Below are positions 3,092-32,722 of a DNA stretch of 34,420 nt, one piece after another. Each line of letters opens with the position of its first letter. Positions within the stretch are counted from its first letter, which is position 1. The stretch covers positions 1 through 34,420 of IMG/VR virus record IMGVR_UViG_3300000101_000064, one strand, 5' to 3'. Made by a program: the position numbers and the translations under genes. Below the pieces are notes generated by a model. That model was not told where the DNA came from. It searched no databases and saw only the letters and a list, made by a program, of their open reading frames with translations. Source of the DNA: a virus.

Positions 3092-4165
3092 ATGGCTTTT
3101 ACAACCGCAACGGGTTATGGGAATTTACCAAACGGTAATTTTAGTCCTGTAATCTACTCCAAAAAGGTACAACTTGCTTTCCGTAAGTCTACCGTAGTAG
3201 GGGATATTACCAACTCAGATTATTTTGGAGACATCGCTAGTCAAGGCGATACCGTCAAGATTATCAAAGAACCTGAAATTTCTGTGTCGCAGTACGCAAG
3301 GGGTACGCAGGTTACAGCACAAGACCTTGAAGATGAGGATTTTTCACTCACCGTAGACAAAGCGAACTACTTTGCTTTTAAAATGGATGATATTGAAGAA
3401 GCACATTCTCATATTAATTTCATGGACTTAGCTACCAATCGTGCAGCTTATCGCCTAGCTGACCAGTATGACCAAGAAGTTCTTGGCTACTTATCTGGTT
3501 ACGCACAAAGTTCTTTGCATAGTCAGGCAAGTGCTCTTAACACAACTGTTAATGGTACTAAATCTGTAACTACTGCAGGTTCTAATGAACTGCTTTCTTC
3601 TATGCAGCTTCATAAAGGTGACTTTGGCAACATTACAACAGCATCTGCTGGTACTCATTCGATTCCAGTAACTGCTCGTATGCCAGGAGCTACATCACTA
3701 CCAACAGCAACTGTTTCCCCTGCGATGATTATTTCACGCATGAAGCGTTTGTTGGACCAACAGCAAGTAGACTCACAAGGTCGCTGGCTGGTAGTTGATC
3801 CAGTATTTATGGAAATCCTAGCTGATGAAGATTCACGCTTCATGAACGCAGATTTCGGTGAGTCTGGTGGACTACGTAACGGTCTAAACATCAATAACTT
3901 CCACGGCTTCCGTGTGTACTCTTCGTCCAATCTACCTGCTTTAGGTACTGGTCCAGGTACATCTGGTACAGCCAACCAATTAACTAATCTTGGTGTTATT
4001 GTTGCTGGACATGATTCTGCTATTGCTACTGCAGAGCAGATCAATAAAACCGAAACATATCGTGACCCTGACAGCTTTGCTGACATTGTTCGTGGTATGC
4101 ATCTTTACGGCAGGAAGATTCTTCGTCCAGAAGCTATCGTAACTGCTCGTTATAACGCAGCGTAA
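3092..4165 (+). CDS. Major capsid protein
   Basis: The 357-residue protein is predicted to form the icosahedral head shell and probably has the HK97 fold. N-terminal text typical of podovirus capsid proteins includes SPVIYSKKVQLAFRKSTVV (about 18-36), an ITNSDYFGDIASQGDTVKI segment, and FKMDDIEEAHS (about 97-107). A later stretch, RWLVVDPVFMEIL, and a C-terminal 'YGRKILRPEAIVTAR' tail also fit this family. Length matches T7-like capsid proteins (about 340-400 aa). The AGGAGG site at 3078-3083 is ideally spaced. Codon use is richer in C-ending codons than in neighbouring genes, as expected for a highly expressed gene. Its place between the scaffold and decoration-like genes, under a strong promoter, supports the call. 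Confidence 0.88.
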   Translation: MAFTTATGYGNLPNGNFSPVIYSKKVQLAFRKSTVVGDITNSDYFGDIASQGDTVKIIKEPEISVSQYARGTQVTAQDLEDEDFSLTVDKANYFAFKMDDIEEAHSHINFMDLATNRAAYRLADQYDQEVLGYLSGYAQSSLHSQASALNTTVNGTKSVTTAGSNELLSSMQLHKGDFGNITTASAGTHSIPVTARMPGATSLPTATVSPAMIISRMKRLLDQQQVDSQGRWLVVDPVFMEILADEDSRFMNADFGESGGLRNGLNINNFHGFRVYSSSNLPALGTGPGTSGTANQLTNLGVIVAGHDSAIATAEQINKTETYRDPDSFADIVRGMHLYGRKILRPEAIVTARYNAA

Positions 4166-5707: not shown

Positions 5708-7449
5708 TGCCAGATAGTTCTCAAGTACAACCAGCAGCATTTAACTGTGAAGGTGGGCTAGTTTTAAACAGGTCCACTTTTCTTATGCAACCTGGTGAAG
5801 CTTTAGTTTTAGAAAACTTTGAGCCTGACCTTGAGGGTGGTTACAGAAGGGTTAATGGCTTTCGTAAATTTGTTTATCCTATAGTTCCACAAACCTCTAG
5901 CTCTAGTGAAAAGGTTTTAATGGTTGCTAACTTTGCAGATAAAGTATTAGCAGCTAGGGGTCAAAAGATATTTTCTTCTGCATCTACTGAGTTAAGTTTA
6001 ACAATAACTTCTACTACTGGTATGACAGGCTCTGGTACAATTACAGTAGACTCTACTGCAGGGTTTGCTTCTAGTGGTACAATACAAATTGGGTCAGAAC
6101 TGTTTACCTATACTGGTGTTACAAGTACTACATTTACAGGTGTAACAAGGGCAACATCCAGCACTACTGCAGCTACTCATCTTTTTAATACTGTGGTGTC
6201 TCCCTCTAGTTGGACAGAAATAGATTCAAGTAGAACTAGTGCATCTAAGTATTCTTTTGAAAGATATAACTTTGATGGTAACGATAAGATAATATTTGTA
6301 GATGGTGCTAATGCGCCTGTTATATTTAATACATCTTTAACTGCTGCAGATGTAAGTGAAAGTTCTGTATCTGGCTCTAAGTTTGTAGTTGCGTATAGAA
6401 ACCATATGTTTTATGCAGGTAAGTCTACTACACCACAAGAAGTAGTATTTAGTGAACCTTTTGATGAAGATGGTTTTGAATCAGGTGATGGTGCAGGTAG
6501 TATTAAAGTAGATGATACTATTGTTGGACTAAAAGTTTTCCGTAGTAATCTATTTATATTTTGTGCAAATAGGATATTTAAACTTACAGGATCATCTCTA
6601 TCAAACTTTGCAGTTGAACCTGTAACAAGAAACATTGGTTGCATTAATGGTGACACCATACAGGAATTTGCAGGTGACTTGATCTTTCTTGGTCCTGATG
6701 GATTAAGAACTGTAGCTGGTACTTCAAGGATTGGTGACGTTGAGCTTGGTACAATATCTAAAAATGTACAGTCTTTATTTGATAAAAACATAAGAGACTC
6801 TTCTCTTTTTGAAAGTGTTGTGATACCTGATAAAACACAGTATAGAATATTTTTCACAAAAGATACAGTTGCAGACAATCTAACAAGAGGTATTGTCTGT
6901 GTTATGAGGGGAGATAAGTATGAGTTTTCTGAAATACTTGGCATAAGACCTTCCTGTACTGATACTTTTATTGATTCAGGAGATGTAGTTGTACTGCATG
7001 GTTCATTTGATGGTTTTATACACAGACAAGAAAAAGGCAATACTTTTGATGATACAGTTATCTTTGGAAGATATAGAAGTCCTGATTTAAGTTTTGGTGA
7101 TTCTGGTATAAGAAAACATATGCAAAAAGTTATTCTTAACTTTAAACCAGAAGCTGCTATTGATGCAGATTTATTTTTAAGGTATGATAATGAAAGTGTT
7201 GATTCATCAAGACCTGCCGCATATGCTTTAGATACATCTAAGATTGCTGCACAATATGGTACTGCTACTTATAGTACCTCTTCCTCTACTACTCAGTTTG
7301 TTTATGGTGGTGGTACACAACCTTTACTAAGACAATCTGTAGAAGGATCAGGATTTACTGTTGCATTAAAAGTAGATGATGGTGGAGAAACTGCACCATA
7401 CTCACTTAAAGGTTTTCAGTTAGAATATCAATTAGGAGCTAGACGCTAA
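5707..7449 (+). CDS. Tail tubular protein B-like tail hub protein
   Basis: This 580-residue protein is predicted to form the nozzle or stabilising part of the short tail. The N-terminus contains FNCEGGLVLNRSTFLMQPGE and ENFEPDLEGGYRRVNGF, a signature I know from podovirus tail-stabilisation/TtuB proteins. It is followed by many short beta-strand repeats (KVLMVANFADKVLAARG, FERYNFDGNDKIIFVDGAN, VVAYRNHMFYAG, RSNLFIFCANRIFKL) typical of a propeller-like nozzle. Residues about 95-165 hold a beta module related to the insert in the upstream adaptor. The start overlaps the previous stop (TAATG), so translation is probably coupled. The length is somewhat below T7 gp12 (about 790 aa). Confidence 0.72.
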   Translation: MPDSSQVQPAAFNCEGGLVLNRSTFLMQPGEALVLENFEPDLEGGYRRVNGFRKFVYPIVPQTSSSSEKVLMVANFADKVLAARGQKIFSSASTELSLTITSTTGMTGSGTITVDSTAGFASSGTIQIGSELFTYTGVTSTTFTGVTRATSSTTAATHLFNTVVSPSSWTEIDSSRTSASKYSFERYNFDGNDKIIFVDGANAPVIFNTSLTAADVSESSVSGSKFVVAYRNHMFYAGKSTTPQEVVFSEPFDEDGFESGDGAGSIKVDDTIVGLKVFRSNLFIFCANRIFKLTGSSLSNFAVEPVTRNIGCINGDTIQEFAGDLIFLGPDGLRTVAGTSRIGDVELGTISKNVQSLFDKNIRDSSLFESVVIPDKTQYRIFFTKDTVADNLTRGIVCVMRGDKYEFSEILGIRPSCTDTFIDSGDVVVLHGSFDGFIHRQEKGNTFDDTVIFGRYRSPDLSFGDSGIRKHMQKVILNFKPEAAIDADLFLRYDNESVDSSRPAAYALDTSKIAAQYGTATYSTSSSTTQFVYGGGTQPLLRQSVEGSGFTVALKVDDGGETAPYSLKGFQLEYQLGARR

Positions 7450-9866
7450 TGGGAGCGACATACACAAGACAATCTACGTATACAGATGGTGATATAATTC
7501 AAGCATCTAATACTAACAATGAATTTGATCAACTTTTAGCTGCCTTTGCTGCTAATACAGGTCACACACATGACGGTACTACAGGTGAAGGTGGACCTAT
7601 TAGTACGTTAGCTGGACATGGATTAACATTTGGTGCTGGTACATCAGGTACAGATATTACAATTACCTTTGATGGTGAAAGTAATGATGGTGTATTAAAG
7701 TGGATGGAAGATGAGGACTACTTTGAGTTCTCTGATGACATACTTATTGCTACTACAGAAAAGTTACAATTTCGTGATACTGCTATTTATATTAACTCTA
7801 GTGCTGACGGTCAGCTTGATATTGTTGCAGACACAGAAATACAAATTGCTGCTACTACTGTAGATATTAATGGCCTTGTTGATATATCAGGCAACCTATC
7901 TGTGGGTGGTAACTTAGATGTTACAGGTACATTTGATCTTAGTGATGCTAACTTTACTAATGCTGGTAATATTCAACTGGATAGTATTTCTGGTGATTCA
8001 GATACTAATACAAGTATTACATTTAGTGGCTCAGATGTTATTACAGTTGCAACTGGTGGGTCTACTGCCTTTACAGTAAATGCAGATCAGTCTGTAACTT
8101 TTTCTGGTAACGTAATAATTGGCAGTGCAAATATAGCAGAAGCAGAATTAGAAATACTTGATGGTGCTACTGTTACTACTGCAGAACTTAATATTCTTGA
8201 TGGTGTAACAGCTACTGCTGCAGAGATAAATACTTTAGATGGTGTTACTGCAGTTGTAGGTGAACTTAATGCTCTTGACTTAGGTAGCACTGCTATTGGT
8301 ACTGCTATTGCTTCTAAAGCAGTTGTATTAGATGCAAACAAAGATTATACAGGTATACGAAATCTCACACTAGCAGGTGATCTTACTATTGGTGGTGATG
8401 ACCTTACAATGGCTACTAATACTGCTGGTGCTTTACTTATTGCCGATGGTACAAACTTTAATCCCACTGTAGTAGGTGATCTATCAGAAATATCAACCGC
8501 TGCTAATGATGATGTATTTATAGCTATAGACACTTCTGGTGGTGGCCTTAAAAAAATTAGTAGAAGTGCTATTATTGCTGGTACTGGTTCAAGTGGAGAC
8601 TTAGCTAACATAGTAGAAGACACATCACCACAACTAGGTGGAAACCTAGATACTAACTCTAATAATATACTAATTGATGATGCACATTTTATTGGTGATG
8701 AAAATGGTAATGAACAAATTATCTTTCAAACTACAAGCTCTGCAGTAAATCAAATTGATGTAACAAATGCAGCTACTGGTAATGGTCCTATTATATCTTC
8801 TACTGGTGGTGATACAAACATTAATCTTAATTTAACTCCTAAAGGTTCTGGGGTTGTTATGATTGATGGTACTGTTGGTATTGATACAGGTAAAATTGAT
8901 CTTAAAAATAGTGGTACAGCTTCTCAGATTTTATTCTACTGTGAAAGCTCTAATGCCCACGCACAAACACTACAAGGTGCTCCACACTCTCAAGGAGCTA
9001 CAAATACACTTCTATTACCAGATGGAGGCAATGGAACATTACTGTCAACAGTCTCGACTGCTACAATAACTAACAAAACTTTAACATCTCCTAAGATTAA
9101 TGAAGATGTAGCAGTTACCTCAACAGCCACAGAGTTAAACCTTCTTGACGGTGTTACAGCTACTACGGCTGAATTAAACATTTTAGATGGTGTTACTAGC
9201 ACTGCTGCGGAAATAAATATAATAGATGGGGGTACTTCTGCTACATCAACTACAGTAGCAGATGCAGACCGTGTTGTTATGAATGACAACGGCACTATGG
9301 TTCAAGTAGCTGTAACAGACCTTGCTGCATACTTTGATGATGAAATAACTGCAATGCCTAACCTTATAACTACTGCAGCTACTACGGTAGGGGCATTAGA
9401 TTCTGGTAGTATTACATCTGGGTTTGGCACTATTGATACAGGTGCTTCTGCTATTACTACTACAGGTCTTATATCTGGTGGTTCGTTAGACATTGATAAT
9501 GTTCTTATTAACGGTACAACTATTGGTCACACAGATGACACAGACCTTATTACATTAGCTGATGGTTTAGTTACTGTTGCGGGTGAAGTATCCTTGACAA
9601 CACTAGACATTGGTGGTACTAATGTAACATCTACTGCAGCAGAACTAAACATACTTGATGGAGTAACTGCCACTACTGCAGAGTTAAATTTACTAGATGG
9701 TGGTACTTCTGTTGGTAGTTCAATAACAGTAGCAGATGCTGATGGTTTTGTAGTTAATGATGGTGGAACAATGAAGACTATTCCAGCAACAGATATAAAA
9801 ACTTATGCTAGTGGTAGTTCAGCTACTAAAGGTTTTGCTATAGCAATGGCAATCGTATTCGGATAA
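7449..9866 (+). CDS. Tail fibre protein with LDG repeats
   Basis: The 805-residue protein probably binds the host surface. The N-terminal segment contains GHTHDGTTGEGG (about 38-49), a motif frequent in phage tail fibres, and may attach it to the tail. The body is beta-rich, with Thr/Asp/Gly repeats suggesting a trimeric fibre. Nine copies of an AELN-x-LDG-x-T element occur in three clusters, at residues about 231-278, 557-596 and 729-752. The C-terminus (KGFAIAMAIVFG) is hydrophobic. The gene starts in a TAATG overlap with the tail hub gene, with an AGGAG about ten bases upstream. No chaperone, hydrolase or peptidase motif is seen. Confidence 0.75.
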   Translation: MGATYTRQSTYTDGDIIQASNTNNEFDQLLAAFAANTGHTHDGTTGEGGPISTLAGHGLTFGAGTSGTDITITFDGESNDGVLKWMEDEDYFEFSDDILIATTEKLQFRDTAIYINSSADGQLDIVADTEIQIAATTVDINGLVDISGNLSVGGNLDVTGTFDLSDANFTNAGNIQLDSISGDSDTNTSITFSGSDVITVATGGSTAFTVNADQSVTFSGNVIIGSANIAEAELEILDGATVTTAELNILDGVTATAAEINTLDGVTAVVGELNALDLGSTAIGTAIASKAVVLDANKDYTGIRNLTLAGDLTIGGDDLTMATNTAGALLIADGTNFNPTVVGDLSEISTAANDDVFIAIDTSGGGLKKISRSAIIAGTGSSGDLANIVEDTSPQLGGNLDTNSNNILIDDAHFIGDENGNEQIIFQTTSSAVNQIDVTNAATGNGPIISSTGGDTNINLNLTPKGSGVVMIDGTVGIDTGKIDLKNSGTASQILFYCESSNAHAQTLQGAPHSQGATNTLLLPDGGNGTLLSTVSTATITNKTLTSPKINEDVAVTSTATELNLLDGVTATTAELNILDGVTSTAAEINIIDGGTSATSTTVADADRVVMNDNGTMVQVAVTDLAAYFDDEITAMPNLITTAATTVGALDSGSITSGFGTIDTGASAITTTGLISGGSLDIDNVLINGTTIGHTDDTDLITLADGLVTVAGEVSLTTLDIGGTNVTSTAAELNILDGVTATTAELNLLDGGTSVGSSITVADADGFVVNDGGTMKTIPATDIKTYASGSSATKGFAIAMAIVFG
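8139..9705 (+). repeat. AELNILDGVTAT repeats inside the tail fibre
   Basis: Nine degenerate copies of about 11-14 codons are grouped at about 8139-8282 (four), 9121-9235 (three) and 9637-9705 (two). They are in frame and separated by unrelated beta-rich sequence. Such repeats are common in phage fibres and could allow length change by recombination. Confidence 0.8.
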
Positions 9867-9878
9867 AGGAAGAAATAA

Positions 9879-10244
9879 ATGACCGTAATTAATCTAATTA
9901 ATGTATCAAGCATTACACCTACGACAGTTGCTGGTGCGATAACAACAAGCAGGGCAGCTATTATTGATGTTGCTGCTGACAAAGTTGCTAAAGTAAACAC
10001 ACTACTTATTGCAAACATTGACGGTACTAATGCTGCTGATGTTACAGTTGAAGTAAGTGTAGACAATGGTTCAAACTATGTAGCTATAGCCAAGACAGTA
10101 TCTGTACCTGCTGACTCAACACTAGTTGTTGTAGGTAAAGACAATGGCTTCTACTTAGATGAAACAGACTTACTTGCAGTTACAGCTTCTGCAGCTAGTG
10201 ACCTAACATACTTATGTAGTTTTGAACTAATGGATGATGCTTAA
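9879..10244 (+). CDS. Small beta-rich tail-associated protein
   Basis: The 121-residue protein has alternating hydrophobic residues consistent with a compact beta-sandwich. Examples are KVNTLLIANID (about 47-57), DVTVEVSVDNGSNYVAIAK and TLVVVGKDNGFYL. No signal peptide, membrane segment or catalytic motif is visible. It begins 12 bases after the fibre stop with a good AAGGAAG site and is followed after 15 bases by the first propeller protein. The position suggests a fibre-tip, adaptor or capping protein for neighbouring adhesins. The pattern resembles small proteins I recall near marine phage fibre genes, but no named family can be assigned. Confidence 0.6.
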   Translation: MTVINLINVSSITPTTVAGAITTSRAAIIDVAADKVAKVNTLLIANIDGTNAADVTVEVSVDNGSNYVAIAKTVSVPADSTLVVVGKDNGFYLDETDLLAVTASAASDLTYLCSFELMDDA

Positions 10245-10259
10245 TAGGGGCAACGACTA

Positions 10260-11489
10260 ATGGCTAGAAGAAATGGTGGCTTTATAGGTCAAGATGGATT
10301 AGATGCACCTGATCCACCCACAGGTGTTACACCTACGGCTGGTAACGCACAGGTTAGTGTGGCATTTACTGCTCCTAGTGATGTAGGTACGTCTGCTATT
10401 ACAGGTTTTGTAGTACAGGTTAGTACAGATGATACAGCCTACAGTGCAGGTTCTAATACAGGTACGTCTTCACCTATTGTTGTAAGTAGTCTTACTAATG
10501 ATACTGCAGCTACTGCAAAAGTATGGGCTATTAATGCTTATGGTACATCTGCACCTAGTGGTGCTAGTGCTAGTTTTACACCTGTATTACCTACTCCAAG
10601 GGCTATAATACATGTAACTACTACTGGTTCTTCACCTGCTAATCAAACACTAGAATATGTTGATATGGGAACTTCAGGTGATTCCTCAGATTTTGGAGAC
10701 TTAACTCAATCTAGAGAGGGAACAGGTGGTGGTGCATCAACTACTAGAGGTATTTTTAGTAGTGGTAGTTTTGCGTACAGTGGATCAATGTACAATGTTA
10801 TAGATTACGTCACTATACTTTCTACTGGTAATGCTACTGACTTTGGAGATATGTCTGTATCAAGGACTTATGGAGATGGTTTATCAAATAATACCAGAGC
10901 TATATTTGGTGGTGGGGCTACTAACGCAAACAAGTCTACAAAGTCAAATGTAATAGATTATGTAACAATAGCTAATACAGGTAATGCTACAGACTTTGGT
11001 GACTTGAGTGCAGCAAAAGCTGATGTAGCTGCTGCTGCTTCTACAACAAGAGGGGTTTTTATTGGTGGTGATACTGGAAGTGCTATTAACGTAATAGAAT
11101 ATATTACTATAGCGTCTGTAGGTAATACTACAGACTTTGGGGATCACGCTGCTACTTTAAGATTTGGTTCAGCTTGTGCAAGTAATGTAAGATTAGTATG
11201 TCATGGTTACAGGGCTAATGCATCAAGTAATGCTTTAGATTATATTACTATAGCTAATACAGGTAATACTACAGACTTTGGTGACCTAACAAAAACATGC
11301 TATGGAACTGGAGCTACATCTAATCATATTTTAGGTATATTTAATGGTGGGGCTAGTACAGATAGTAAAAGCATGGATAAAATAACTATAGCCAGTACAG
11401 GTAATGCTGCTGACTTTGGTGATCTAAGTATTGTTGCTAAGGCAAAACCAACATCTATCTCTTCAAAACACGGAGGCATAGCAGCATAA
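10260..11489 (+). CDS. Adhesin-like protein: fibronectin III domain plus six-repeat propeller
   Basis: The 409-residue protein starts with a short tail, then a fibronectin type III-like domain at about 17-108 (PPTGVTPTAGNAQVSVAFTA, ITGFVVQVSTDD, AKVWAINAYGTS). Six repeats of about 45-50 residues follow. Each contains a TRGIF-GGG-like strand, a NVIDYVTIA strand and TGNATDFGDLS. The chain ends with KHGGIAA, which resembles the first strand of a blade and could close a beta-propeller ring. This is the only one of the three tandem paralogs with the fibronectin domain, which may attach the group to the virion. A host-receptor or glycan-binding role is inferred. Its last codons include GGAGG, serving the next gene. 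Confidence 0.68.
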   Translation: MARRNGGFIGQDGLDAPDPPTGVTPTAGNAQVSVAFTAPSDVGTSAITGFVVQVSTDDTAYSAGSNTGTSSPIVVSSLTNDTAATAKVWAINAYGTSAPSGASASFTPVLPTPRAIIHVTTTGSSPANQTLEYVDMGTSGDSSDFGDLTQSREGTGGGASTTRGIFSSGSFAYSGSMYNVIDYVTILSTGNATDFGDMSVSRTYGDGLSNNTRAIFGGGATNANKSTKSNVIDYVTIANTGNATDFGDLSAAKADVAAAASTTRGVFIGGDTGSAINVIEYITIASVGNTTDFGDHAATLRFGSACASNVRLVCHGYRANASSNALDYITIANTGNTTDFGDLTKTCYGTGATSNHILGIFNGGASTDSKSMDKITIASTGNAADFGDLSIVAKAKPTSISSKHGGIAA

Positions 11490-12454
11490 TGCCCAACTTT
11501 AATGGCGTGTGGAGCCTCTCAACACAATATCAGTATGCAGCAGATTGGCCTATTATACCTGACGCTACTATAGGTTTGCATTTTGGTGGATTAACAACCG
11601 CTGGTGCTTATTTAAATGTAATACAACAGATAAGTTTTGTTTCTGGAACTAACGCTACTGACTTTGGAGACTTAACTCAAGGAGTATATTATAGTGCGGC
11701 TGTTAGTTCTTCTACTAGAGGCATCAATGCTGGTGGTACTACAGGTAGTCAAATAAATGTAATAGATTATGTTACAATAGCCTCTGCTGGTAATGCTACA
11801 GACTTTGGTAATTTAAGTGCAGCAAAATCATCATTGGCTGGTGCTGGCAATAATACAAGAGGTCTTATAGCTGGTGGTCTAGTCGGCAGTACACAACAAG
11901 ATGTTATAGAATATGTTACAATAGCTAACACTGGTAATGGCACTGATTTTGGAGACTTAAGTTCAGCAAGACATGCATTAGCAGCACTTAGTGGTACTAC
12001 TAGAACTATTTTTCTTGGCGGTCAGTCAGGTAGTACTTATATGGATACAATAGAATATGTAACTACAGGTTCTACAGGTAATGTAACAGACTTTGGAAAT
12101 CTTTTAGCTGGTCAAGACCACACACGAGCATCTTCAAACTCTATAAGAGGTTTATATTTTGGAGGATTTGATGGCAGTAATAGTCAAAATGTAATTCAAT
12201 ATATTACAATAGCCTCTACTGGTAATGCTTCTGACTTTGGTGATCTACTTGCAGTTAATGCTTTTAATTCAAGTTGTGCAAGTCCAGTTACAGCATTATT
12301 ATTAGGTGGAAGTGTAGATGATGGAAGTAATGCAATAAATGTTATTCAAGGAGTAACTATAGCTACTACTGGTAATTCTACAGACTTTGGTGATTTAACT
12401 ATAGCAGTGTTTGGATCAAGTGCTTGCTCTAATGCACACGGAGGTATTGCATAA
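11489..12454 (+). CDS. Propeller-repeat adhesin, second tandem paralog
   Basis: This 321-residue protein lacks the fibronectin domain of its upstream paralog. A short N-terminal segment (GVWSLSTQYQYAADWP) is followed by six copies of the VIxYVTIA-x-TGN-x-TDFG(D/N)L repeat and ends with HGGIA. Comparable N-terminal wording (GVWNLQDAYDYTRGGNWP) is found in the third paralog, so these two are closest in architecture. The ATG overlaps the previous stop as TAATG, 12 bases after a GGAGG within the preceding gene. It probably forms one ring of beta-blades on a tail appendage. A structural, non-enzymatic role is likely because no catalytic residues stand out. Confidence 0.66.
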   Translation: MPNFNGVWSLSTQYQYAADWPIIPDATIGLHFGGLTTAGAYLNVIQQISFVSGTNATDFGDLTQGVYYSAAVSSSTRGINAGGTTGSQINVIDYVTIASAGNATDFGNLSAAKSSLAGAGNNTRGLIAGGLVGSTQQDVIEYVTIANTGNGTDFGDLSSARHALAALSGTTRTIFLGGQSGSTYMDTIEYVTTGSTGNVTDFGNLLAGQDHTRASSNSIRGLYFGGFDGSNSQNVIQYITIASTGNASDFGDLLAVNAFNSSCASPVTALLLGGSVDDGSNAINVIQGVTIATTGNSTDFGDLTIAVFGSSACSNAHGGIA

Positions 12455-13497
12455 TGTCGTACAAACAAATGACAGGCAACATAATCTCCGCAACAAAAGT
12501 AGAACCTGCTGGTAAAGTTGTAAATAGTGCAGCTTCTGGTGTGTGGAACTTACAAGATGCCTATGACTACACTAGGGGTGGTAACTGGCCTAATGCAGCT
12601 AATGCTGCGCCATCAGGATTAATAGCTGGCGTTGGTGCAACTGGTGGCTCCTACACAAATGTAATAGATTTTATTGTCATTGCCACTACAGGTAATTCTA
12701 CAGACTTTGGTGATAGAACTGTATCCACTTGGAGATTAAGTGCTTTTGGATCTTCTACAAGAGGTATGTTTAATGGTGGTCAAACAGATGATAGATTAGA
12801 CACAATAGATTTTGTCACTATAGCTTCAACAGGTAATGCTACTGACTTTGGTGATCAGTCCACAGTTTCTCGATTTGGAACAAGTTTAAGTAATAACGTA
12901 AGAGGTGTCATGGCTTTAGGGGATACAGATGCTTCTGTTAATTCAGACGTTATGGACTACGTCACTATAGCATCTACTGGAAATGCTACTGACTTTGGTA
13001 ATCTAAGTCTTGGTAGGTTTTCCCTAGCAGGTTGTGCAAGTACAACAAGAGGTCTTTTTGCAGGTGGCTATAATAGTGGAAACAAAAATATTATAGATTA
13101 CATAACTATAGGATCAACAGGTAATGCTACAGACTTTGGTGATTTATCAGCAACTAGTAATAATAGCTCTGGGTGTGCTTCTAATACAAGAGGTCTTTTT
13201 GCATTGGGTTATACATCTACTTACTCTGATACTATAGAGTATGTTACTATAGCTAATACAGGTAATGTTACAGACTTTGGTAATTTGACTGAAGCTAAAC
13301 ATAATATGTTATCAGTTTGCAGTAATTTACGTGGTATCTTTGCAGGAGGTAGTTCTTCGTCTGGCAATGCGACCATTGCAACTATGGATTATGTTACTAT
13401 AGCTAGTGCAGGTAATGCATCAGATTTTGGTGACTTATCTGCAGTAACACTAAATGGAGCAGGTTGTTCAGGTTCACACGGTGGTATAGCTGCATAA
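12454..13497 (+). CDS. Propeller-repeat adhesin, third tandem paralog
   Basis: The 347-residue protein has a longer N-terminus (about 50 residues, including KMTG-like polar text and GVWNLQDAYDY) before six TDFG(D/N) repeats and a terminal HGGIAA. It starts in a TAATG overlap with the second paralog, nine bases after GGAGG. Here the His-Gly-Gly codons read CAC GGT GGT, so no ribosome site is formed, matching the absence of a coupled gene downstream. The blades are as regular as in the other paralogs and there is no frameshift. It is likely a tail adhesin expressed together with the two previous genes. Confidence 0.66.
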   Translation: MSYKQMTGNIISATKVEPAGKVVNSAASGVWNLQDAYDYTRGGNWPNAANAAPSGLIAGVGATGGSYTNVIDFIVIATTGNSTDFGDRTVSTWRLSAFGSSTRGMFNGGQTDDRLDTIDFVTIASTGNATDFGDQSTVSRFGTSLSNNVRGVMALGDTDASVNSDVMDYVTIASTGNATDFGNLSLGRFSLAGCASTTRGLFAGGYNSGNKNIIDYITIGSTGNATDFGDLSATSNNSSGCASNTRGLFALGYTSTYSDTIEYVTIANTGNVTDFGNLTEAKHNMLSVCSNLRGIFAGGSSSSGNATIATMDYVTIASAGNASDFGDLSAVTLNGAGCSGSHGGIAA

Positions 13498-13559: not shown

Positions 13560-14399
13560 TTGTCTAACACAGAATTAGCTATCACAACTACACTAAACGA
13601 AGCACTACCTACTGCTGCCCCTGAGTATAAGTCTATGCTTAATAACATTGCTGAGAAGATGCCAGCAGTTACACAGGCCACCAGCAACTTCCACAAGTCA
13701 CACAGTCAGTTTATGGGAGTTACACTAGACGTAACAGCTATTACACCCATACGTAGCATTAAACATACACTAGCTGAAATAGACAAGACACGATCAGCAC
13801 TACAGGAAGCTTACATAGGGCTACGCAAGAAAGAGAATAAGCTTAAGAAAAGAGAAGCTGAACTTAAAGTTTGTACAGATGACTTAGACCGTGAGCTACT
13901 AGAGATAAAGATACTGGAGCTACAGGGTCACTTAGAAGGTACACGCAACGCAGTCCAAGGTGCTGTACGCAAGATGAACTTCTTTACTAATCAGTACGAT
14001 AACCTGATGAAGAAGATAGGTAAGACAGAACTTACTGAGGAAGACTACGAACTAGAAGAAGCACGTTACCACATTATGACTTGTATGAAGCAAGCATTAA
14101 ACAGTGCAAGACCACGACAGGGTATCATTGACGAAGGTAACATGATCTACTTATTTGACTTAGGTATCAATGCAGCCCAAGCTCAACTAGAAGTAATGTC
14201 ATACCTTAACTGGGAAAACGAATTAGTACAACAAGGCAAAGCCCCAGAGCATGAGCATACAGTACAGTGGCTTGAGGGATGTGCAGATAAGTGGGCAGGA
14301 TGTCCAGCAGCATTTGCTAACAGTAGAGGGTTTGACGTATTTGACCCTACATCATTAGCTAACACACCACAGATAGAGGATAAAACAGATGGCGTATAA
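13560..14399 (+). CDS. Conserved-looking phage protein of unknown function, coiled coil
   Basis: The 279-residue protein starts at TTG, supported by AAGGAG (13547-13552) seven bases upstream; no ATG lies nearer that site. Residues about 70-125 are a long charged helix likely to form a coiled coil (KKENKLKKREAEL, DDLDRELLEIKILEL). A compact segment follows with ARPRQGIIDEGNMIYLFDLG and HTVQWLEGCADKWAGCP, including Cys residues that could be structural. There is no membrane segment. Base composition and codon choice look closer to the replication arm than to the adjacent fibre genes. It lies behind its own candidate promoter and overlaps the next gene by 11 bases. I do not recognise its function. 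Confidence 0.6.
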   Translation: MSNTELAITTTLNEALPTAAPEYKSMLNNIAEKMPAVTQATSNFHKSHSQFMGVTLDVTAITPIRSIKHTLAEIDKTRSALQEAYIGLRKKENKLKKREAELKVCTDDLDRELLEIKILELQGHLEGTRNAVQGAVRKMNFFTNQYDNLMKKIGKTELTEEDYELEEARYHIMTCMKQALNSARPRQGIIDEGNMIYLFDLGINAAQAQLEVMSYLNWENELVQQGKAPEHEHTVQWLEGCADKWAGCPAAFANSRGFDVFDPTSLANTPQIEDKTDGV

Positions 14400-30889: not shown

Positions 30890-32722
30890 TTAGTGTACAT
30901 CTGCATAGGTTTGACCATACTGTATGTCAATACCTAAGTCAACATTTAATCTTAGTTGTTCGTTAAGTTTTTCTATTGCCCACTGTAGGGCTGATGTGTG
31001 TTCATTCTCCTCACCTTTCTTAATAACATTAATGCTTTCATCGTGGAACTGACCTATAATGTTTGACCTCTTTGATCGGTACAGTGCAACCCACCTATCA
31101 AAACAGTAAGCACCTGTGCTCTGGTTGATAGTAGAGAAAGCATCCTTCTTAAACCGTAGACTGTGCCAGAACTTACTGACTGGGTTCTGTATCCACATAT
31201 CTTGGTTTATCTTCCTTGGTTCTTGATCTTCACAGAACTTCTTGACAGACCAGTTACGGTTCCAATAAGCATCTAGTAAATCCTTAGCTTGCTTCTCAGA
31301 CATATCTGTTTCACGAGATAACTTAGGCGCACCAATGCCATAGGTAGCAGAGTAGTTTACCACCTTGAAGTTCTTACGTAGTTCTTTTAGCTTTGGCATT
31401 TCACCCCTATTGTACTTATCTATCTCCTCTTGAGTAGCATATCCAGCATGTCTTGCCAAGTCTAAATGGGGATCAAAACCAGGCTGTGACATTTCTGCCA
31501 CATAGTCAGGATCGTATGAGTGCATATAGTGGCGTTTGGTTGTGTCCTCTAGTGAGGTCATGTCTGCACCACAGAGAAGGTAACCATCAGGTGCAGTCAA
31601 GCAGCCACGTATCTCCATACCCCAAGGCTTATCTACACCTGGAAGATTAACCAGAGGCTTCTGATGTTTGAAGCGTAGTGTGTTAGTCAGGCCAGCAATC
31701 TCTGCCTTGACATACCCATCACGTTGACACTCCAAGAAACCCTTGAGTATACCTAGCCTGTGTTGTAGGACAGTTAGTCCATCAAGAACTTGTACCTGTT
31801 TGTTATCATCCATCAATATCTTAACAGACTTAGTAAGCTCACCATACACTCTGACTTGTGGTATCTTACGTTCCCCAACATACTTGAATGTGCAGGGCTT
31901 CCAGCCAAGACCAAACAACCAGTCCTTAACCTGATCAGATGACATAGGGTTAGCTGCCTCAACACCTTTGACAACTGTTACCTCACCCTCATAGTCATGG
32001 GGTAGCCCTTCACCAGCTAGTAGGTCAGCCCACTTCTTTCCTTGGGAAGAGAGTGATCCATCTTTCTTATAGCAGGACTTTGGTTTGCTTTTGACTGCCA
32101 TAATCTTTCGCATTGGCATAACGTCTACCAACTCTTGTGTCTTATGATCTTGTAAGTCAGTAAGCTGTTGCACTAGGTCTTTTGCTTTTTGTACATCTAA
32201 CTTCCAACCTTGGTGCTCTGCTTCTTTAGCACAGTCCATTTTAAATTGAAGGTAACGAAAGAAACGATTGAGTTCTGTCTTGTCTTTATAGATAAACATA
32301 AACCGTTTGATCAAGTCTTGCCACAGTTTACAGTTAATCTTCACATCTTCTTGGCAACGATGTATGTACTCCTCTGTAGTTAAGTTGTGCCAATCAGTAA
32401 TGACTGGTTTAGGTATACCAAAGTCTTCACCAAAGGTGTCAAGACCATGCCGTGATCTGTTGTAGTTGATCACCCAAGACATAGGCAGGGTATCAAACAA
32501 CTGAGCCTTAATCTTTATATCAAGAATTTTTTCCAACAAAGGTATATCGTATCGAATTATGTTATGCCCTATCAAACCCTTTGCATTGAGTAGGATATTA
32601 CGCATAGCATTGTAGTCACTAGTGCTTATAAGTGAACCACCATTAGGATTACGACAGCTAAGACAATGTATCTTAGTTGCATCCTCTAGTAGACCATCTG
32701 CTTCTATGTCAAATACTATCAT
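30890..32722 (-). CDS. T7-like family A DNA polymerase
   Basis: The 610-residue protein carries an N-terminal 3'-5' exonuclease domain and a C-terminal polymerase domain. Exonuclease residues are Asp5 and Glu7 in FDIEADG, GHNIIRYDIPLL (52-63), and Asp126 in the YxxxxxxD motif. Polymerase motif A is GADMTSLED with Asp387. Motif B (the O helix) is R449-x3-K453-x3-Y457-x3-YG. Motif C is HDE at 560-562. The site equivalent to E. coli Phe762 is Tyr, as in T7 polymerase. The length is shorter than T7 gp5 (704). The start overlaps the primase-helicase stop as ATGA. All catalytic residues appear intact, including proofreading. Confidence 0.92.
   Translation of the reverse strand: MIVFDIEADGLLEDATKIHCLSCRNPNGGSLISTSDYNAMRNILLNAKGLIGHNIIRYDIPLLEKILDIKIKAQLFDTLPMSWVINYNRSRHGLDTFGEDFGIPKPVITDWHNLTTEEYIHRCQEDVKINCKLWQDLIKRFMFIYKDKTELNRFFRYLQFKMDCAKEAEHQGWKLDVQKAKDLVQQLTDLQDHKTQELVDVMPMRKIMAVKSKPKSCYKKDGSLSSQGKKWADLLAGEGLPHDYEGEVTVVKGVEAANPMSSDQVKDWLFGLGWKPCTFKYVGERKIPQVRVYGELTKSVKILMDDNKQVQVLDGLTVLQHRLGILKGFLECQRDGYVKAEIAGLTNTLRFKHQKPLVNLPGVDKPWGMEIRGCLTAPDGYLLCGADMTSLEDTTKRHYMHSYDPDYVAEMSQPGFDPHLDLARHAGYATQEEIDKYNRGEMPKLKELRKNFKVVNYSATYGIGAPKLSRETDMSEKQAKDLLDAYWNRNWSVKKFCEDQEPRKINQDMWIQNPVSKFWHSLRFKKDAFSTINQSTGAYCFDRWVALYRSKRSNIIGQFHDESINVIKKGEENEHTSALQWAIEKLNEQLRLNVDLGIDIQYGQTYADVH

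Follow-up and report, generated by a model that had tools for sequence, protein, structure and literature searches.

In the K1-5, G7C and KP32 viruses, one tail bears several receptor-binding proteins, which are held by conserved N-terminal peptides and the C-terminal recognition domains of which are exchanged horizontally (PMC6872550). In marine phages, host-recognition genes (tail fibre, C1q, lectin) occupy metaviromic islands, where they vary in otherwise similar phages (PMC3909814). Here, we describe a locus in the window (i.e., the whole stretch of DNA analysed, 34,420 nt), which we take, with a probability of roughly three in four, to belong to a marine podophage of the HMO-2011 type and to form an adhesin array with three slots, in which slot leaders carry interchangeable recognition cartridges.

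Layout and Genomic Setting of the Locus

The array consists of three genes on the plus strand, which we have termed slots A, B and C. Slot A (10260..11489; 409 aa) encodes a leader, an FN3-like domain and a predicted six-blade kelch ring; slot B (11489..12454; 321 aa), a leader of the form MPNFNGVWSLSTQ...WP and a predicted six-blade ring; slot C (12454..13497; 347 aa), a leader of the form MSYKQMTGNIISATKVEP...SAASGVWNLQ...WP and, again, a predicted six-blade ring. A and B as well as B and C are joined by TAATG stop/start overlaps. In the relatives, all of which are metagenomic contigs (L-numbered loci), the order is fixed: 121-aa protein, A, B, C, 279-aa protein. The gene for the 121-aa protein (9879..10244, plus strand) lies directly 5′ of slot A in 67/67 relatives with long enough sequence, and that for the 279-aa protein (13560..14399, plus strand; PHROG_1409) directly 3′ of the array in 51/51. 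The 121-aa protein matches gp65 of HTVC033P (59%), the gene of which adjoins the HTVC033P tail fibre, while the 279-aa protein found no match among 50,697 phage records (tblastn). The tail-fibre-like gene 5′ of the array (7449..9866, plus strand; TAAELNILDGVTAT repeats) has the position of the annotated “putative tail fiber protein” of CRP-9, CRP-13 and HTVC033P. It features repeated TAAELN(I/L)LDGVTAT units, and the tail fibre of HTVC033P has similar repeats.

The window is a 34.4-kb fragment of an HMO-2011-type phage: it carries the capsid gene and homologous neighbouring tail genes of an HMO-2011-like morphogenesis module. Its major capsid protein (3092-4165) is closest to that of Roseobacter phage CRP-9 (80%; 71% to HMO-2011), and its DNA polymerase (30890-32722) to that of Roseobacter phage CRP-6 (56%), which belongs to a different phage group, so that the replication and morphogenesis modules differ in affinity. 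The array occupies the site where CRP-9/HMO-2011-type isolates carry other tail or fibre proteins. Four relatives (L204, L217, L223 and L129) have the array, with the 121-aa gene, A, B and the 279-aa gene, in phages whose other genes, as far as fetched, are unlike those of the window, the upstream fibre gene included; the module thus crosses phage lineages.

The array is absent from the isolates among the 50,697 phage records. A tblastn search of these phages with ring C yielded S-SKS1 as the sole match (26%); searches of isolates returned one weak lectin gene (DSL-LC04) for the slot-C leader and none for the slot-A leader with its FN3 part; and a PDB sequence search found no relative of the window proteins. 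Bacterial origin was considered and rejected: when GTDB was scanned with the alignment of slot A, three weak matches appeared, all within the FN3 part.

Six-Blade Rings of the Kelch Type

A preliminary description of this DNA noted three neighbouring genes with six TGN-x-TDFG(D/N)L repeats each, all ending in HGGIA(A), and read them as propeller adhesins. That observation was confirmed, while the interpretation built upon it was supported in part. All three open reading frames are present and terminate in HGGIA(A), and each encodes exactly six DFG(D/N) cores, at a spacing of 46-51 residues. The full form of the motif is looser than described, since several copies deviate (SGDSSDFGD, TGNAADFGD, ASDFGD) and the strict TGN-x-TDFG is not universal. 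At the DNA level, where similarity had likewise been noted, the motif copies are 60-79% identical, and a DNA pattern for the motif gave 10 matches on the plus strand versus 0 for the reversed control. A score of six blades was obtained for 207 complete unsplit relatives; five more initially scored five, and inspection revealed all six in each. In total, 212 unsplit ring proteins were counted, every one with six blades, a constancy not attributable to chance.

AlphaFold2 (AF2) models were made for A with 78 homologues (pLDDT 91 overall, about 95 in the ring) and for C with 74 homologues (pLDDT 89 overall, 95-98 through most of the ring). Both models are closed rings of six four-strand blades, of the kelch type, as the propeller reading would have it. 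The ring of A spans aa 111-409 (10590..11486, plus strand) and that of C aa 51-347 (12604..13494, plus strand). With Foldseek, C aligns to KLHL12 (6v7o; TMt 0.89, E 1e-19), while VIA yielded Z scores of 38.7 (C) and 36.9 (A, 277 residues) to the designed propeller SAKe6BE (7onc) and about 35-37 to KEAP1, with an rmsd of 1.9-2.1 over 277-278 residues in the alignments of A and C. B is 43% identical to C along its own length. The six-blade ring fold is thus shown by computation, from the models for A and C and from homology to C for B. In the predicted topology, the N-terminal part of the ring provides strands b, c and d of blade 1 and the C-terminus provides strand a; the stretch before HGG therefore completes the ring in the manner of kelch domains, which bears out the earlier idea of the tail as ring closure. 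None of P0001-P0003 matched Pfam kelch even at E 10, and Kelch_4 was weakly matched by one of the 78 slot-A homologues; hence, we consider the fold kelch-like, outside the Pfam kelch sequence family.

Slot Leaders and Alternative Cartridges

The slot A leader has the consensus NGGFIGxDGLxAPDxPT and is followed by the FN3-like domain (together aa 1-108; 10260..10583, plus strand, delimited in homologue alignments). Pfam fn3 is matched by 70/78 slot-A homologues (best E 4.9e-11), and the window protein itself (P0001) shows a weak SusE match only. The consensus is MPNxxGVWSLxTQ...WP for slot B and M..K..xGNII...SAASGVWxL...WP for slot C; in the window, the latter leader (aa 1-50; 12454..12603, plus strand) is modelled mostly at low pLDDT, with a short helix at 33-41. 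A leader and its nearest neighbour share the slot in 207/207 cases. Leader conservation is biased upward, since peptide patterns of the leader/FN3 part served to recruit some of the loci; the flanking genes played no role in this selection. The preliminary description was right about an FN3-like domain in the first gene and about the related GVW-type N-terminus of B and C, which has the form GVW-(S/N)L...WP. It also considered one protein anchored and two unanchored, which finds no support: a conserved leader specific to the slot is present in all three, and B and C are therefore not unanchored.

Slot C often, and slot B in a few loci, combines the same kind of leader with a cartridge other than a ring, i.e., with LamG or glycine-rich domains. 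Scans of two slot-C alternatives identified both as LamG/DUF7483 proteins; a PHROG scan, made for one of them, yielded matches to tail-fibre and virion structural families. In isolates, LamG and glycine-rich proteins with an NGGxIG- or GVW-type lead come after the homologue of the 121-aa protein. It is mainly these LamG and glycine-rich proteins on like leaders, isolates included, that lead us to infer that the leaders are docking modules of tail adhesins. Four relatives with a window-type MSYKQMTGNIISATKVEP leader (L012, L014, L016 and L017) have a non-propeller protein of 661-675 aa in slot C. In five others (L109 585-2582, as well as L111, L121, L155 and L167), the slot A protein is some 660 aa long and, in addition to the leader, FN3 and ring typical of this slot, has a stretch of about 250 residues.

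Exchange of Whole Rings

The median identity of rings is 45.9% within slots and 45.1% between slots. Ring identity is about 48% both for genomes with 60% and for those with 95-100% identity in the downstream protein; the latter genomes have their leaders in common, yet only some 48% of the residues in the rings. When close genomes are compared at the DNA level, identity changes abruptly at the junction of leader and ring and again where the gene ends. Between L009 and L010, leader and ring are 94% and 54-62% identical in slot A and 91% and 53-57% in slot B; in slot C, the leader is 98% and blades 2-6 are 89-92% identical, and the downstream sequence 97%. The A and B rings were thus replaced and C retained, as is also the case for L005 and L004. 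Between L176 and L225, the upstream sequence is 100% identical, the leaders 92 and 97%, and the rings 43-58%: both the A and B rings have changed, with the leaders constant.

Rings also recur across slots, forming some seven clusters of 67-95% identity, e.g., L112-A and L204-B (95%), L164/L176-A and L229-B (91%), L009-A and L226-C (83%), and L172-A and L236-C (81%). The cross-slot matches examined extend over all six blades, in register. They come from metagenomic contigs, such that misassembly could mimic some, while several occur in at least two independent contigs. Ring pairs with at least 60% identity number 60/8026 within the same slot versus 16/13172 across slots, so that rings are more often exchanged or inherited within a slot than across slots. 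Duplication within a genome was considered and rejected: none of the 123 ring pairs within one genome reaches 60% identity; this is no different from the rate across genomes, and selection for difference is not claimed.

By sequence comparison, the unit of exchange is the whole ring and not the blade. Exchange of single blades, proposed in the preliminary description, was sought in an all-against-all blade BLAST and rejected: only one of the 43 blade pairs at 80% identity or more was out of register, and the cross-slot matches span whole rings in register. Its expectation of fast change in the recognition surface is supported, as is its reading of the locus as adhesin-like.

A Variable Face

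Given the up-down topology of the four-strand blade, one face of the ring is formed by the b-c and d-a loops and the opposite one by the a-b and c-d loops. The ratio of nonsynonymous to synonymous codons, a raw codon count over 44 non-independent pairs, is 1.31 for the b-c and 1.73 for the d-a loops, versus 0.45-0.67 for the strands and opposite loops. Column entropy and recent nonsynonymous change are concentrated in the same b-c and d-a loops, while the c-d/a-b face is conserved. Judging from these patterns of substitution, the b-c/d-a face is probably the receptor-binding face.

Gly-Gly Codons and Predicted Translational Coupling

The Gly-Gly of the terminal HGG is encoded by GGAGG in 82/89 A genes and 67/82 B genes (149/171 combined) versus 1/28 C genes and 137/763 internal blade Gly-Gly pairs (Fisher p about 5e-67 against internal pairs and 7e-19 against C, for sequences that are related and not independent). 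Downstream of the A and B tails, the next ATG follows within a few bases; the C tails are mostly without one. In the window, the GGAGG in the terminal His-Gly-Gly codons of A is at 11472..11476 and that of B at 12440..12444 (both plus strand). The computation, hence, identifies the Gly-Gly codons of the A and B tails as the predicted Shine-Dalgarno sequences of B and C, respectively. Most C genes keep the terminal Gly-Gly, coded otherwise, implying that the amino acids matter structurally too. Gene expression, in addition to fold, would thus account for the conserved C-terminal tail.

Split Rings

In some relatives, a stop and a new ATG in a b-c loop split the ring over two adjacent genes with 2+4 or 3+3 blades, e.g., 3+3 in L115 (434-1213 and 1213-1605) and 2+4 in slot C of L174. 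Such splits occur in slot A (L004/L011/L122, L115, L127), slot B (L008, L017, L024/L180) and slot C (L174, L024/L180). Pairs with both halves intact in the contig total six blades, and because the cut falls within a blade, six complete blades can only come from the pair. For L115/L127 and L174/L180, both halves have diverged (dS about 0.7-2.0) with dN/dS of 0.14-0.30, indicating purifying selection on both. A GGAGG or GGGGG, read by eye, lies just 5′ of the new start in 7/8 split junctions; blade Gly-Gly codons may, therefore, serve as a latent ribosome site.

The two halves presumably pair into one ring. On balance, we favour a cartridge system in which one ring type is mountable on any of the three leaders and some rings are built from two complementing polypeptides. 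Complementation would be mid-blade, the first polypeptide contributing strands a and b and the second strands c and d, and splitting would be made possible by the Gly-Gly codons closing each b strand, acting as latent Shine-Dalgarno sequences. Designers reported that they were unable to obtain hetero-split rings from WD40 fragments (PMC6805158); the natural split rings offer a direct test of hetero-split propeller assembly.

Proposed Function and Alternative Explanations

We propose that the short conserved leader of each slot would plug its protein into the virion tail, with the FN3-like domain of slot A as a spacer between leader and ring. In the window phage, each of the three slots would carry a six-blade kelch ring as its cartridge, the hypervariable face (b-c, d-a) of which would probably contact the receptor, the other face (c-d/a-b) being conserved. 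Rings would be replaced whole, slot by slot, and could move between slots, with leaders and flanking partner genes constant, and translation of A, B and C would be coupled through the Gly-Gly codons doubling as Shine-Dalgarno sequences. The preliminary description suggested a hetero-oligomeric or stacked adhesin instead. The obligate form of such a complex, with the three rings stacked or packed 1:1:1 into a composite receptor-binding head, agrees with their co-occurrence, fixed order and translational coupling, and the conserved c-d/a-b face could be its interface. Nevertheless, slots are replaced independently, A and B changing while C stays or both changing under constant leaders (see the pairs above), rings move between slots, and the frequent LamG or tail-fibre domain in slot C, at times also a LamG or glycine-rich domain in B, makes an obligate three-ring complex unlikely. 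A common base may hold all three rings.

Some enzymes, galactose oxidase among them, have a kelch fold, and A, B and C could conceivably be soluble or cell-surface phage proteins that act within or on the infected host, as a kelch-type enzyme, scavenger or superinfection factor. We find this quite improbable: the genes lie among tail genes and adjoin a tail fibre, like leaders bear LamG/DUF7483 domains matching tail-fibre and virion PHROGs, and a single hypervariable face together with ring replacement fits recognition. Elevated nonsynonymous change in the variable-face loops could also arise from rapid point-mutational divergence under selection, or from a diversity-generating retroelement, with no exchange involved. 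The odds of this appear very slim, as rings differ at 40-55% of nucleotides next to leaders and flanks that are 91-100% identical, the boundaries coincide with the leader/ring junction and the gene end, and near-identical rings occur in different slots; no reverse transcriptase is apparent among the open reading frames of the window, itself a genome fragment. In the three-slot adhesin array that we prefer, A, B and C would all be present in the virion and bind receptors. Ring exchange would let the virus alter its recognition surface with the rest of the genome untouched. If so, the host-recognition module of a large set of uncultured phages becomes readable as three slots and a cartridge library, and host-range change would be traceable ring by ring in metagenomes.

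Comparison with Known Systems

KLHL12, KEAP1 and the designed SAKe6 have the fold, blade number and C-terminal strand closure predicted for the window rings, which are 8-16% identical to them in sequence (structural alignments), are without Pfam kelch match and, unlike them, sit in a phage tail locus. Predicted viral structures of the kelch proteins of phages BcepSaruman, PhiPA3, Noxifer and S-SKS1 match as well, and some of these proteins are annotated as virion structural; they are not known to form three-slot arrays with common leaders. In S-SKS1 (L106 68-3060), kelch-type genes flank a PHROG_1409 gene, of the same family as the one at 13560-14399 in the window, and a further kelch-like coding match without annotated gene lies at 201819-202424 of its record. 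E217 and DT57C were dismissed as kelch phages, the literature matches being to the name of an author and not to the fold.

As in the metaviromic islands (PMC3909814), the host-recognition genes are the variable spot; the variability described there was found by read recruitment, and “propeller” is nowhere in the text of that paper. The anchor-branch systems of K1-5, G7C and KP32 resemble the array in organisation: a conserved N-terminal leader, which in our array would do the docking, is combined with an exchangeable C-terminal domain. No T4gp10-like docking domain was identified in the array, and the always-linked neighbours at 9879-10244, as a putative docking base, and at 13560-14399 are candidates for the docking anchor of the leaders. 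The array further differs from these systems by its three slots, by cartridges that are kelch rings and not depolymerase domains, and by the occurrence of the same ring in different slots.
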